Below the pieces are notes generated by a model. That model did no database searches and had not been told where the DNA came from. It was given only the letters and a program-made list of their open reading frames with translations. Below are positions 23,483 through 39,247 of a stretch of 47,669 nucleotides of DNA, piece by piece. A program made the translations under genes and the position numbers. The DNA comes from Armatimonadota bacterium (GTDB taxonomy: Bacteria; Armatimonadota; Hebobacteria; GCA-020354555; CP070648). Within the stretch, counting starts at the first letter, position 1. Every line of letters starts with the position of its first letter. The DNA lies in contig CP070648.1 in the NCBI GenBank assembly GCA_020354555.1, forward strand, positions 4,156,246 through 4,203,914. The letters run 5' to 3'.

Positions 23483-23588
23483 CTCTCCCGCTCAGGGAGA
23501 CGATTCAGGTGAGAGTACGCAGCCTTGCTCTTCACCCTCACCCGGCCCGTCTGCGCCGGGCCGGCCTCTCTCTGGCAGGGAGAGGCGT
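23483..23588 (+). repeat. Palindromic intergenic repeat, copy 1
   Basis: On the plus strand it has CTCTCCCGCTCAGGGAGA, later CACCCTCACCC, then CCTCTCTCTGGCAGGGAGAGGCGT. The same series of blocks, with a different middle, occurs on the minus strand at 37469-37402 in the valS leader. It also holds the hairpin CGGCCC...GGGCCG. It lies between the PilW-like and PilV-like genes. Confidence 0.6.
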
Positions 23589-34466: not shown

Positions 34467-37163
34467 TCACTCTCCCAGCCGCGCCGCCAGCGCCTCAACA
34501 CGTTCGCGTAGGGCGGCAGCGTGCCGTTCCGACTCCTCGGCGCGCGCGCGGGTGTCGGCGACGACCTGCGCCGGCGCGCGCTTCAGGAAATTCGCATTCT
34601 TCAGCTTGCCGCGCACGCGGTTCATCTCGCTCTCCAGCTTGGCAAGCTCCTTTTGCAGACGATCCCGCTCCTTCTCGAGTTCCGCGGCTGATACTGCGGC
34701 GGCGACTGCGACCCGCACCTGCCCGCCCTCCCAGACCACGACGTCGGTGGCGGCGTCGGACTGCGGCGCGCCCGACTCGACGCTCACCGACTTCGCCCGT
34801 ACCAGGTGAGCGACTACTTCCCCGGCCGCCGCGAGCGTTCCCGCCGCCGCTTGCCGCTCCGGCGTCAGGATCACGTCAACCGTTGCCGCGGGCTGCACGC
34901 CCTGCTCTGCCCGGAGACGCCGCGCCGATGTTACGACGTCCATGACCAAGGTCATCGCCGCCTCGGCCTGCGCGTCGCGCAGTGCGGCATTCGACTCCGG
35001 CCACGGCGCGATCATGATGGACGCCCCGGAGTGCGGCAGCGCCTGCCACAGCTCCTCAGTGATGAACGGCATAAACGGGTGCAGCAGCCGCAGGGTCCGC
35101 TCGAACGCGTAGATAATCACATCCCGTGTCAGCGCCTGCGCCTCCGCGTCATCGCCGTGCAGGGCCGGCTTGGCGATCTCCAAATACCAGTCGCACAGCT
35201 CGCCCCAGAAGAAGTCGTAGAGCGCGCGCGCCGCCTCGTCCACGCGGTATTCGGTGAGCGCTTGCGTCACGGTCGTGGTGGTCGCTTCGAGCCGGCTCAG
35301 TATCCAGCGTTCGGGCAGGCCGCCGGCGGATGCGAGCTGCTCGGGGTCCGGCCACGTGCGCCCCGCGCGCGCGTAAGCGGCGTCATCGAGGTTCATCCGC
35401 ACCAGGCGCGCGGCGTTCCAGATCTTGTTCGCGAAATTGCGGCTCATCTCGATGCGCTCCTCGGTGAAGCGCACGTCTTGTCCGCTCGAGCACTGGACGA
35501 TGAGCCCGAAGCGCGTCGCGTCGGCGCCATAGGTGCTGATGAGGTCCATCGGGTCGACCCCGGTGCCCAGGGACTTGCTCATCCGGCGCCCCTCCCAGTT
35601 GAGGATCGTCGGGTGCACGAGCACGCGATAGAACGGCACTTTGCCCGTGAACTCAAGGCTCGTCATCACCATGCGCACGACCCAGAGGTAGAGGATGTCG
35701 CGGCCGGTGATGAGCAGGTCGGTGGGGTAGAAGCACTCCATCTCGGGCGTCGCCTCCGGCCACCCCAGCGTCGCAAACGGCCACAGGGCGGAACTGAACC
35801 AGGTGTCGAGCACGTCCGGGGCCTGCTCGATCTTCCGTGTGCCGCAGGCGCCGCAGTGATCGGGCGGATCCACCTGCACCGTGAGCGCGTCGCACTCCTC
35901 GCAGAACCACACGGGCAGGCGGTGCCCCCACCAGATCTGCCGCGAGATGTTCCAGTCGCGCAGGTTGTCGAGCCAGTCCAGAGTGTAGCCGAGGAAGCGG
36001 TCGGGAACGTACTCAACTCCGCCGGCCTGCAGGCTTTTCTTCGCCATGTCGGCGAGTTCGCGCATGGCGAGGAACCACTGCTCGCTGAGCAGCGGTTCGA
36101 TGGCGGTGGCGCACTTGTCGTGGTGGCCGATGGAGTAATGGTATTGCTCGGTTTCGATCAGCAGGCCCTGCGCCTCGAGGTCGCGCAGCACCGCCTCGCG
36201 CGCCTCGTAGCGATCCAGGCCCGCGTACTTGCCCGCGTCCTCGGTCATGCGCGCGTCCTTGCCGATGACCGTCACGCTCGGCAGCCCGTTGCGCTGTCCC
36301 GCGTCGAAGTCATTCGGATCGTGCGCGGGGGTGATCTTCACCGCGCCGGAGCCGAACTCCGGGTCCACCAGCACGGCATCCTCGACCAACGGAATCTCGC
36401 GATTCATGAGCGGCAAGATGAAGGTCTTACCGCGGAGAGCGCGGTAGCGCGCGTCGTCGGGATGAACGCCGACCGCAGTGTCGCCCAGCATCGTCTCCGG
36501 CCGCGTCGTCGCCACGACGACAAAGGATGATCCGTCGGCTGCGGGGTAGCGGATGTGCCACAGCTTGCCGTCCACCTCGCGGTGCTCGACTTCGAGGTCG
36601 CTCACCGTGGTATTGCAGGCGGGACACCAGTTGACCACTCGCTCGCCGCGGTAGATCCAGCCGCGCTGGTAGAAGTGCACGAACGCGGTCAATACCGCGC
36701 GGTAGTAGCCGTCATCGAGGGTGAAGCGCTCGCGGCGCCAGTCGTATGAGCAGCCCAGCGCGCGCAGTTGCTTGAGGATGGTGCCGCCGTACTTCTCGCG
36801 CCACTGCCACATGCGTTCGAGGAACTCCTCGCGGCCGAGGGCGTGGCGCGACGTGCCCTCCGCCGCGAGTTCGGCCTCGACCTTCATCTGAGTCGGAATG
36901 CCGGCGTGGTCGGTGCCGGGGAGGATGAGGGTTTCCTTGCCGAGCATACGCTGCCAGCGCGCAAGGAGATCGTGGATCGCGTGCTGCAGCGCGTGCCCCA
37001 TGTGCAGCGATCCCGTCACATTCGGCGGGGGGATGGTGATGCAGAAGCGCGGCTTCGACGCATCGCCCTCCGCGTGGAAATGGTCCGCGCGATTCCAGAA
37101 GTCGTACCACTTCTGCTCGACCGCGTGGGGCTCATAGGTCTTCGACAGCTCTGACGCGTCCAT
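34467..37163 (-). CDS. valS: Valyl-tRNA synthetase
   Basis: 898 residues, class I synthetase that charges tRNA-Val. HMGH (54-57) is the HIGH motif and RMSKS near 526 the KMSKS motif. The CP1 editing domain has TTRPETMLGDTAV. An anticodon-binding helical domain follows. The C-terminal coiled coil (LEKERDRLQKELAKLESE...) is the tRNA-binding arm of ValS. GGAGAG lies before the ATG. Expression is likely governed by the T-box leader upstream. The gap to yqeG is 50 bases. Confidence 0.96.
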   Translation of the reverse strand: MDASELSKTYEPHAVEQKWYDFWNRADHFHAEGDASKPRFCITIPPPNVTGSLHMGHALQHAIHDLLARWQRMLGKETLILPGTDHAGIPTQMKVEAELAAEGTSRHALGREEFLERMWQWREKYGGTILKQLRALGCSYDWRRERFTLDDGYYRAVLTAFVHFYQRGWIYRGERVVNWCPACNTTVSDLEVEHREVDGKLWHIRYPAADGSSFVVVATTRPETMLGDTAVGVHPDDARYRALRGKTFILPLMNREIPLVEDAVLVDPEFGSGAVKITPAHDPNDFDAGQRNGLPSVTVIGKDARMTEDAGKYAGLDRYEAREAVLRDLEAQGLLIETEQYHYSIGHHDKCATAIEPLLSEQWFLAMRELADMAKKSLQAGGVEYVPDRFLGYTLDWLDNLRDWNISRQIWWGHRLPVWFCEECDALTVQVDPPDHCGACGTRKIEQAPDVLDTWFSSALWPFATLGWPEATPEMECFYPTDLLITGRDILYLWVVRMVMTSLEFTGKVPFYRVLVHPTILNWEGRRMSKSLGTGVDPMDLISTYGADATRFGLIVQCSSGQDVRFTEERIEMSRNFANKIWNAARLVRMNLDDAAYARAGRTWPDPEQLASAGGLPERWILSRLEATTTTVTQALTEYRVDEAARALYDFFWGELCDWYLEIAKPALHGDDAEAQALTRDVIIYAFERTLRLLHPFMPFITEELWQALPHSGASIMIAPWPESNAALRDAQAEAAMTLVMDVVTSARRLRAEQGVQPAATVDVILTPERQAAAGTLAAAGEVVAHLVRAKSVSVESGAPQSDAATDVVVWEGGQVRVAVAAAVSAAELEKERDRLQKELAKLESEMNRVRGKLKNANFLKRAPAQVVADTRARAEESERHAAALRERVEALAARLGE

Positions 37164-37324: not shown

Positions 37325-37350
37325 CAAAACGCCCCTCTCGCTCAAGGGCG
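37325..37350 (-). terminator. T-box-controlled intrinsic terminator
   Basis: Minus strand CGCCCTT-GAGCGAG-AGGGGCG followed by TTTTGCG. It lies directly after the T-box antiterminator sequence and would stop transcription when tRNA-Val is charged. Confidence 0.75.
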
Positions 37351-37401
37351 AAAGGAGCGCTTCCGCGGTGCCACCTTGATTGTCGCCAGCATTAGGGCCT
37401 C

Positions 37402-37469
37402 ACGCCTCTCCCTCTCCAAGGGAGAGGCTGGGTGAGGGTGCCTTCTGCCCTCTCCCTGAAAGCGAGAGG
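37402..37469 (-). repeat. Palindromic intergenic repeat, copy 2, inside the T-box leader
   Basis: Minus strand CTCTCGCTTTCAGGGAGAGG, then CACCCTCACCCAGCC, then CTCTCCCTTGGAGAGGGAGAG followed by GCGTGAGG. The block order matches copy 1 at 23483-23588. It lies between stem I and the antiterminator. Confidence 0.6.
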
Positions 37470-37656
37470 GGGGCCGACGGCATCTCTCGCGCTGTAACGG
37501 GCTTGCCCGGAGGCGGCTACGCAGACCGACGGCCGTTCACCACCTCGGCTCCAGGGCGACGTTCACCGATGCTGCTCTGCCGGCCCTTGCAGCCGGGACG
37601 CGATTCCCGCGACTTCCTAGCGACGGGGACGTTCCCGCGTTTTCCGCAAGAAAACC

Positions 37657-37707
37657 GGGACTGTACCCTTCAGCGCCTGGGGACAGTCCCCGTTCGGGGA
37701 CAGTCCC
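37657..37707 (-). repeat. GGGACTGTCCC palindromes in the valS leader
   Basis: GGGACAGTCCC occurs at 37680-37690 and 37697-37707 in an inverted arrangement around CGTTCG, with a third variant, GGGACTGTACCC, at 37657-37668. Sequences of this kind are known as scattered intergenic repeats in many genomes. Here they overlap the stem I region. Confidence 0.55.
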
Positions 37708-37779
37708 TGCACCCCGGGGCCGGCTCTCTGGCGAGCGCGTATCGGCTACTCCTCCCCTTCTCGGCCTTTTGGCGACGTT

Positions 37780-37809
37780 ATGATAGCAACAAAGCCCTCG
37801 GCCCGTCAA
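37780..37809 (-). promoter_or_regulatory. Promoter of valS
   Basis: Minus strand TTGACG (37809-37804), an 18-base spacer, and TATCAT (37785-37780). The start of transcription near 37773 fits the T-box stem I, which begins right after. Between it and the stop codon at 37886 nothing else is seen. Confidence 0.7.
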
Positions 37810-37885: not shown

Positions 37886-39118
37886 CTACCGTGCCGGGTG
37901 CCGCGGGGGCCTTGGATTCCAGCTCCGCTCCAGCGGGCCCACCTTCGGTGCTCGAACCGGAATAACGAAGCACTCCGCGCCGTCCTCGTCCCGTTCGATT
38001 CTACCACCTGCCGCGAGCACCGTCTCCCGCGCGATCTTCTCGCAGGCACCGAGGAGCCGCGGGAAGCTGTACTCCGTAGTGCTGAACACGCGGCCCATGT
38101 CGAGCCCCGCGGTGTAACGCGGATCGAGGCGCGAGAACCCGATCATCGTGAACAGGATGCCCGCCGCGTTGGAGGGATTGCAGTCGGAATCCTGCCCGCA
38201 GCGGCAGGCAATCGTCATCGTCTGCTCGGCATCGCGGTCACCGTAGAGCAGCCCGATGAGGATGTAGGCGCCGTTGAGCTTGGCGTCAATGCAGAACGCA
38301 TCCTCGCCGCCCGGTTCGCTGCACAGGCCGTGGACGTACGCCGCGTCCTTGTGATACTTCTCTTCGACCAAGCGCCAGGTGCGTTCCCAATCATCTGGAT
38401 TCTGCTCGTACCATCGCAGGACATCGCGCACCATCTCCGCGTACTGGCTCGCCGCGGGAATCGCTCTGAGCGCTCTTCTCGCGAGGGTCACGGGATCGCT
38501 CTCGAAGAACGACTCCGCGTACATCGCGCCGACGAACTGACCGGCGTACACGCCATCGCCGTAGTTCATGAGATGGCCGAACGTGTCGCCGAGAGCGATG
38601 ACCGCGTTCGGCAGCCCGGGCGCGACGAGTCCGCTGAAGTCGGATTCGATCTGGAAGTCTATGTCATTGGCGTGGTTGTTGAATCGCGGATGCCCCGAGT
38701 CCGGCGGCAGGATGCCGGCGCGCAGGTTCCGGCGCCCGGCGTCGTTGGCGTGGGCGAGGCCGTACTGACTGGCCGCGAAGTCCGCGCCCGCCTGCTTCGC
38801 CGAAACCTCCAGCCCGTGCCGCTCCAGCGTGCGCAGGAACGTCATCTCGACGTAGAGGTCATCCTGGCCGAAGGCGTCGTTGATCATGCCCTCGCGCCAC
38901 TGCGGCATCTGATCCGCCGGCGTGATCCGCCCGCACCAATGGAACTCGGTCGGTGCGCCGAAGGACACGCCTGCCATCTGCCCGACCCATCCCGCCTTCA
39001 TCTTGTCGCGATACACGGCGACGGGCAAGCGGCGGAACGTATCCCGGCGCCCCTCGGCACGCGGAATCGCGCTGAGCGACAGGCAGAGCAGCAGGATGCA
39101 CACCGTCATTCTCGACAT
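37886..39118 (-). CDS. Exported ADP-ribosylglycohydrolase-family protein
   Basis: 410 residues from ATG 39118, chosen because AGGTGAG lies upstream and a signal peptide follows (MTVCILLLCLSLSAIPRAEG). The frame is open for 33 more codons upstream but without such features. The fold is the DraG/ADP-ribosylglycohydrolase family. The metal site has NDAFGQDDLYVEM (about 80-92) near the N-terminus and GQDSDCNPSNAAG (about 305-317) near the end, both variants of the family's DD and DxD motifs. Because of the signal peptide it acts outside the cytoplasm, so a protein ADP-ribose substrate inside the cell is unlikely. It may act on another glycosidic substrate. It stands alone between the lon terminator and the valS promoter. 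Confidence 0.83.
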   Translation of the reverse strand: MSRMTVCILLLCLSLSAIPRAEGRRDTFRRLPVAVYRDKMKAGWVGQMAGVSFGAPTEFHWCGRITPADQMPQWREGMINDAFGQDDLYVEMTFLRTLERHGLEVSAKQAGADFAASQYGLAHANDAGRRNLRAGILPPDSGHPRFNNHANDIDFQIESDFSGLVAPGLPNAVIALGDTFGHLMNYGDGVYAGQFVGAMYAESFFESDPVTLARRALRAIPAASQYAEMVRDVLRWYEQNPDDWERTWRLVEEKYHKDAAYVHGLCSEPGGEDAFCIDAKLNGAYILIGLLYGDRDAEQTMTIACRCGQDSDCNPSNAAGILFTMIGFSRLDPRYTAGLDMGRVFSTTEYSFPRLLGACEKIARETVLAAGGRIERDEDGAECFVIPVRAPKVGPLERSWNPRPPRHPAR

Positions 39119-39147
39119 GACCGACTCACCTGGGCCCCGCAAAGTGA

Positions 39148-39190
39148 GAGGGGCACGGCCCGCTGCAGGCGGTAGGTCACCGTGCCCCTC
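39148..39190 (-). terminator. Hairpin closing the tig-clpP-clpX-lon group
   Basis: Minus strand GAGGGGCACGG (39190-39180) pairs over 11 bases with CCGTGCCCCTC (39158-39148). The loop contains a smaller stem, CCGC-CTGCA-GCGG. TCACTTTG follows. It lies between lon and the next gene. Confidence 0.7.
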
Positions 39191-39247
39191 GGCTCTTCCC
39201 TCATATCGAATTGGCATGCTTGCAGCGCACGCCGCTCCGCGCCGCGC

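Follow-up and report, generated by a model that had tools for sequence, protein, structure and literature searches.

Dispersed repeats are known from the inside of structured RNA genes. The Rickettsia palindromic elements are repeats of this kind, and STRR sequences were reportedly described by Vioque in 1997 in cyanobacterial RNase P RNA. What these cases have in common with the one described here is a dispersed repeat lodged in a structured RNA that presumably still works. They differ from it in the host RNA, which here is the leader of a tRNA-sensing riboswitch.

The closest described riboswitches are the class I T-boxes modelled by RF00230. They comprise a stem I with the specifier codon and two T-loops, followed by stem II, stem IIA/B, stem III, the T-box sequence, an antiterminator, and a terminator, and they lie upstream of a ligase gene of matching specificity. 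Stem I has been described as a caliper that measures the tRNA from anticodon to elbow (PMC4919913). The consensus sequences of its T-loops (AGAGA and UGxRA) and the rule that stem III is flanked as RRRxG-stem III-AA are given in sections of a T-box review, which also note insertions in every T-box domain and leave their origin unexplained there (PMC7583486).

The leader that we describe here has all these RF00230 elements. It differs from the model by an insert of 122 nt in the distal loop of stem I, the largest in 39 parsed T-boxes, by a repeat-bearing insert of 82 nt in the loop of stem III, and by a score below the gathering score. Lineage-specific insertions in T-box domains are common ground with the sections of the review cited above (PMC7583486), to which we add, for this lineage, an origin from a dispersed repeat and a position on the 5' side of the distal loop. 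Our contribution is threefold: a rule for the position of the inserts, the tracing of one insert to a repeat, and the observation that a sister genus has filled the same loops with unrelated sequence. We found none of the three in the literature (open-licence full texts), nor, in the same texts, any report of repeats inside T-boxes or riboswitches.

The leader of valS

The window, i.e., the whole stretch of DNA that we analysed, is 47,669 nucleotides long, and coordinates refer to it unless another sequence is named. On its minus strand, it carries a gene for a valine--tRNA ligase of 898 amino acids (valS, 34467-37163), which matches the NCBIfam profiles PRK05729 (1124.9 bits, cut-off 704) and TIGR00422 (1029.6 bits, cut-off 612.1). 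The search for valS in the genome contigs returned mostly Bacillota relatives, with 44-52% identity. The gene between lon and valS (37886-39217, minus strand) encodes an ADP-ribosylglycohydrolase family protein (PF03747, 87.7 bits). About 160 nt 5' of valS lies a leader (37326-37771, minus strand) that is a T-box, as the earlier note had proposed, and, judging from its sequence, a transcriptional one of class I. RF00230 aligns over its full length (37341-37771, model positions 1-219, 47.0 bits, E = 3.8e-9), and a terminator arm and a T run extend the element to 37326. Stem I, stem II, stem IIA/B, and the antiterminator are all preserved in the alignment. The sequence left over forms two large stretches, of which one falls in the distal loop of stem I and the other between stem IIA/B and the antiterminator. 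The covariance model that the earlier note had named as a check on its suspicion of a broken switch thus reads the stems without interruption by the inserts.

The score of the leader lies under the gathering score of RF00230 (93 bits), which the T-box of ilvD in the same genome passes (93.8 bits). The valS T-box was missed by a scan of the window at the gathering level, and a quicker scan of the whole genome gave it only as a partial match of 27 bits. Leaders with such inserts are under-scored by covariance models (here 47 bits, with gathering at 93) and will therefore be missed in genome annotation. The whole-genome scan revealed four T-boxes, those of valS, pheS (L003), and ilvD (L001), where the latter two genes are named by model match, and one with the specifier AUC (L002). 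Other Rfam matches on the leader (L31, mir-3188, flavivirus repeat, Magnesium-II, and BjrC80) were all under gathering and were set aside as uninformative.

The elements of the leader all lie on the minus strand. The base of stem I pairs 37764-37766 with 37547-37549, and its helix P3 pairs 37741-37746 with 37565-37570. The first T-loop (the AG bulge, 37725-37729) reads AGAGA, in agreement with the published consensus. The distal helix GCCGGCCC/GGGCCGGC (5' arm 37717-37724, 3' arm 37579-37586) is identical in the sister genus (G001, see below), and the distal T-loop region GGCUGCAA (37587-37594) contains a UGCAA of the UGxRA type (37587-37591), flush with the closing helix. Both T-loops are recognised as sequence rather than as fold, and their spacing to the specifier is that of 38 other T-boxes. 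The specifier, GUC (37558-37560, from the Rfam alignment), agrees with the valine specificity of the downstream gene, and the genome has a tRNA-Val(GAC) gene. Stem II (GAGGUGG/CCGCCUC with the S-turn GAA and GUA, 37510-37546) and the stem IIA/B region (CGGG...CCCGUUA, 37495-37509) come from the Rfam alignment and folding, and stem III (CGUCGGC/GCUGGCG, 37384-37479, with arms at 37473-37479 and 37384-37390) comes from folding. These three helices can form, although the free ensemble does not favour stem II. The flanks of stem III, AGAUG (37481-37485) and AA (37380-37381), fit the RRRxG-stem III-AA rule.

The T-box sequence AAGGUGGCACCGCG (37364-37377) is part of the antiterminator (37352-37377, Rfam alignment and folding), which consists of A1 (AAGG/CCUU), the bulge UGGCACC, and A2 (GCG/CGC). 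The terminator CGCUCCUUUCGC/GCGAGAGGGGCG (37326-37359, folding) has 12 bp, a 6-nt loop, and then U4, with base-pair probabilities of 0.99-1.0. Antiterminator and terminator are mutually exclusive: positions 37352-37359 serve both as the 3' arms of A1 and A2 and in the 5' arm of the terminator. The marks of stem I and the antiterminator had been read correctly in the earlier note, and a terminator can be added to them. In the bulge, UGGC would pair its UGG with the CCA of the tRNA, and its fourth position, C, would face A73, which gives a C:A mismatch and three pairs rather than four. All three tRNA-Val genes that we saw have A73 (anticodons GAC, TAC, and CAC; loci L174, L179, and L188), in an anticodon search that covered the loci from 30 of the 36 tRNA matches. 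The same UGGC occurs in 4 of the 15 GUC T-boxes that we read, including this one and that of G001.

We folded the leader (451 nt) with and without constraints. Its minimum energy is -229.2 kcal/mol, and enforcing the core with the terminator gives -221.8 kcal/mol, at a cost of 7.4 of the 229.2. If the tRNA-contact loops are also kept open, the energy is -215.0 kcal/mol (cost 14.2). The core with the antiterminator has -207.9 kcal/mol, i.e., 13.9 above the core-with-terminator fold. In these enforced folds, P2 is AGGG/CCCU, one register off the GGGG/CCCU of Rfam, and both pair. In the free ensemble, the terminator has a probability near 1, P3 of 0.75-0.92, stem III of 0.5, the distal helix of stem I of 0.26, and stem II of 0.05. 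Free folding is by itself no proof of the core.

The two inserts and the dispersed palindrome

The insert in the loop of stem III (insert 2, 37391-37472, minus strand) consists of 82 nt with two hairpins of the CTCTCCC/GGGAGAG type, and the fold of the stem III region is very stable (z = -3.41). The motif CTCTCCC...GGGAGAG at 37406-37426 is a single match where 0.01 were expected. It belongs to a palindrome, CCTCTCCC-N7-GGGAGAGG (37405-37427), that is found at 16 places in the genome, against 0 for the reversed pattern. The CCTCTCCC/GGGAGAGG pattern occurs in 12 of the 21 genomes searched, this one included. Long open frames cover the other copies of the palindrome in this GC-rich genome. In its copy number, the palindrome is REP-like. 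As a candidate for a linked REP-associated tyrosine transposase (RAYT), the genome has one gene of the Y1_Tnp (RAYT-like) family (L257, C1:4048639-4048968, 48.3 bits), and its locus of 3330 bases contains neither CTCTCCC nor GGGAGAG. The earlier note had placed the CTCTCCC/GGGAGAG element also at 23483-23588, outside the leader. The sequence there is indeed related, but it is a degenerate relative of the dispersed element (local score 31, best shuffle 30, with 0 of 1000 shuffles reaching the observed score).

One of the other copies lies in the T-box of pheS (C1:3854639-3855005, specifier UUC), at C1:3854783-3854803, in the loop of stem II. That loop is enlarged by about 130 nt and holds the same CCTCTCCC/GGGAGAGG palindrome as the stem III loop of the valS leader. 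The alignment of the pheS and valS inserts scores 43, which none of 1000 shuffles reaches (best shuffle 29). Thus, 2 of the 16 copies lie inside T-boxes that together make up about 1.3 kb (1.33 kb). The probability of at least two copies in T-boxes is 4e-4 to 9e-4 if copies are spread evenly over an intergenic share of 10-15%, a post hoc calculation in which this share is an assumed value. Leaving out valS, whose copy had prompted the question, the probability of at least one copy in the other three T-boxes is 0.018-0.027, equally post hoc and with the same assumed share.

The insert in the distal loop of stem I (insert 1, 37595-37716, minus strand) has 122 nt, of which a few are native to the 5' side of the loop, and lies on that side, ahead of the UGCAA T-loop. 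It holds two copies of GGGACTGTCCC (37680-37690 and 37697-37707) and a third with one mismatch (37657-37667). A search for this motif allowing a mismatch gave three matches where 0.91 were expected, and at least three were found in 7 of 100 shuffles. In the free fold, the two copies pair with each other to form a single hairpin that contains a U.U mismatch (GGGAC-U-GUCCCC GAAC GGGGAC-U-GUCCC), and the fold of the insert 1 region is very stable (z = -3.66). We considered GGGACTGTCCC as a repeat family and rejected it: it has 4 sites in the 4.88 Mb of the genome, two of which are in insert 1, against 6 for the reversed control, and insert 1 is single copy, with no second copy found in the genome (the next match has 17 nt, E = 0.16). 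Insert 1 also aligns with insert 2 and with the pheS insert no better than shuffles do, and we rejected a relation to either. The idea of the earlier note that the leader is stretched by repeats is thus partly right. The leader is stretched, and the CTCTCCC element is dispersed (16 sites against 0), but the other insert is not a repeat, and its GGGACTGTCCC palindromes are the two arms of one hairpin rather than intergenic repeats.

Both inserts mostly fold on themselves, given that in the free ensemble their pairing with the core is low (0.09 per base in insert 1 and 0.04 in insert 2) compared with their internal pairing (0.58 and 0.67, respectively).

Spacing and conservation of the core

To place the leader among its relatives, we collected 93 loci that contain a T-box match or a valS leader, which gave 76 distinct motif sites. 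Of these, 39 could be fully parsed; the other 37, in which a landmark was missing or variant, were left out. Since the parser demands the conserved motifs, no broken T-box could have been among the 39. From the distal T-loop, which binds the elbow, to the specifier, the distance is 24-30 nt in all 39 (29 in the valS leader), independently of the size of the insert; this holds for a T-loop motif of the G(G/C)UGNRA type, and the looser UGNRA gives one outlier (12 nt) among values of 23-28. The distance from AGTA to AGAGA is also narrow (21-24 nt in the 39, here 21). The distance from AGAGA to the specifier has quartiles of 37, 39, and 43 nt and a maximum of 160 nt, which is that of the valS leader. 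It exceeds 45 nt in six of the 39 (L004, the present leader, and L031, L151, L224, L227, and L237), and since the distance from T-loop to specifier remains at 24-30 nt, all six enlargements are on the 5' side of the T-loop. The distance from CCGTTA to the T box has quartiles of 54, 61, and 79 nt; it is 125 nt in the valS leader and 135 nt in that of G001. It also exceeds 100 nt in five more of the 39; long loops in stem III are thus not rare in the phylum sample.

The T-boxes L031 and L227 (genomes G005 and G009) have the specifier CUC, precede an apparent ilvD (read by eye), and share within the genus a small hairpin, GGTCCC...GGGACC, that occupies the position of insert 1 on the 5' side of the distal loop of stem I.

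G001 is the one other genome of the same family that we compared (our genome set has two of this family, counting this one), and it belongs to a different genus. Its valS T-box (L151) has the same core. Among the 48 core pairs that could be aligned one to one between the two leaders (those of stem III and of the short helix under the AG bulge could not), 41 are unchanged, three have changed on both sides, three on one side, and one is broken; in stem II, there is one two-sided change and one broken pair. In the valS leader of G001, the distal loop of stem I has an insert of 30 nt, the loop of stem III one of 85 nt, and the terminator loop, which has 6 nt in the leader studied here, one of 52 nt. 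Neither the stem I inserts nor the stem III inserts of the two genomes resemble each other beyond the level of shuffles (820 and 873 of 1000 score as high), and part of the stem III insert of G001 is itself dispersed in G001. Both 12-nt arms of the G001 terminator, whose 52-nt loop insert lies at about 912-963 of L151, are identical to the terminator arms of the leader studied here. In ilvD T-boxes, AGAGA is 36 nt from the specifier in the genome studied here, where the distal loop is compact, and 84 nt in G001 (L237, gene read by eye as ilvD). The same class also has compact valS T-boxes (L152, L153, and L154).

A probably intact, stretched switch and its alternatives

Together, these features make it likely that the leader is an intact class I transcriptional valine T-box riboswitch, enlarged by two inserts in its terminal loops. 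Such a switch would act as follows. The anticodon of uncharged tRNA-Val(GAC) would pair with GUC at 37558-37560, and the elbow of the tRNA would stack on the double T-loop formed by AGAGA and UGCAA. The free CCA end would then pair with the T-box bulge, which would favour the antiterminator over the 12-bp terminator and allow transcription of valS. Insert 1, ahead of the UGCAA T-loop, and insert 2, in the loop of stem III, both lie outside the part that measures the tRNA. They should be tolerated because stem I measures the tRNA from specifier to elbow and both fall outside this distance. The inserts thus probably stretch the switch without breaking it; they may change its set-point or kinetics. 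We infer from the sequences that the switch works and that selection has removed insertions elsewhere in the leader.

It is quite improbable that the T-box is instead decaying, with inserts that have ruined tRNA sensing and a valS set by a bare terminator or by something else. Such decay would fit the model score below the gathering threshold, the low probabilities of stem II and of the distal helix in the free ensemble, and the mismatch of UGGC with A73. Yet every binding motif is present, together with the mutually exclusive 3' structures, the spacing from elbow to specifier is kept, and the comparison with G001 reveals compensating changes on both sides of pairs. An always-on terminator before an essential ligase would presumably be harmful as well. 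The suspicion of the earlier note that the inserts may break the switch is likewise at odds with G001, where the core is kept with unrelated inserts in the same two loops. It had also suggested that a pairing of GGGACTGT with ACAGTCCC became part of stem I, which we find hardly credible. With the T-loop kept open, the GGGACUG of the second arm of the insert does pair with a later ACAGUCCC, within insert 1. All these pairs are internal to insert 1. They lie above the closing distal helix of stem I and 5' of the elbow-binding T-loop and are therefore an extension of the distal loop rather than a conserved pairing of stem I. Furthermore, the stem I insert of G001 is unrelated, and P2, P3, and the distal helix are explained without these pairs.

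The inserts could also have been co-opted. As additional modules, they might slow RNA polymerase, lend stability to the leader, or contact the tRNA, which would make this a T-box with new working parts. The very stable folds of both regions, the presence of two of the 16 palindrome copies in so little T-box sequence, and the filling of the same loops in the sister genus speak for this. We nevertheless consider it unlikely: the sequences of the two genera are unrelated, so no common module has been kept, other members of the class have valS T-boxes that are compact, and the enrichment is post hoc, with an assumed intergenic share.

The reading of the leader as an intact, stretched T-box indicates where a large riboswitch can accommodate an addition of some 200 nt and, as we infer, remain a riboswitch, i.e., outside the measure from elbow to specifier. 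The same palindrome lies in different loops of two T-boxes of one genome, and the sister genus has filled the loops of its valS leader otherwise. We suggest, with slightly more doubt than confidence, that T-boxes of this family have permissive landing sites in their terminal loops, namely on the 5' side of the distal loop of stem I and in the loops of stem II, stem III, and the terminator. Dispersed palindromes and other short hairpins would be grafted there repeatedly, while the core that measures the tRNA is kept. This turns the T-box insertions that the review leaves unexplained into a matter with a testable account of origin. If true, it would provide an evolutionary source for such insertions and perhaps a way for repeats to turn into new parts of riboswitches.
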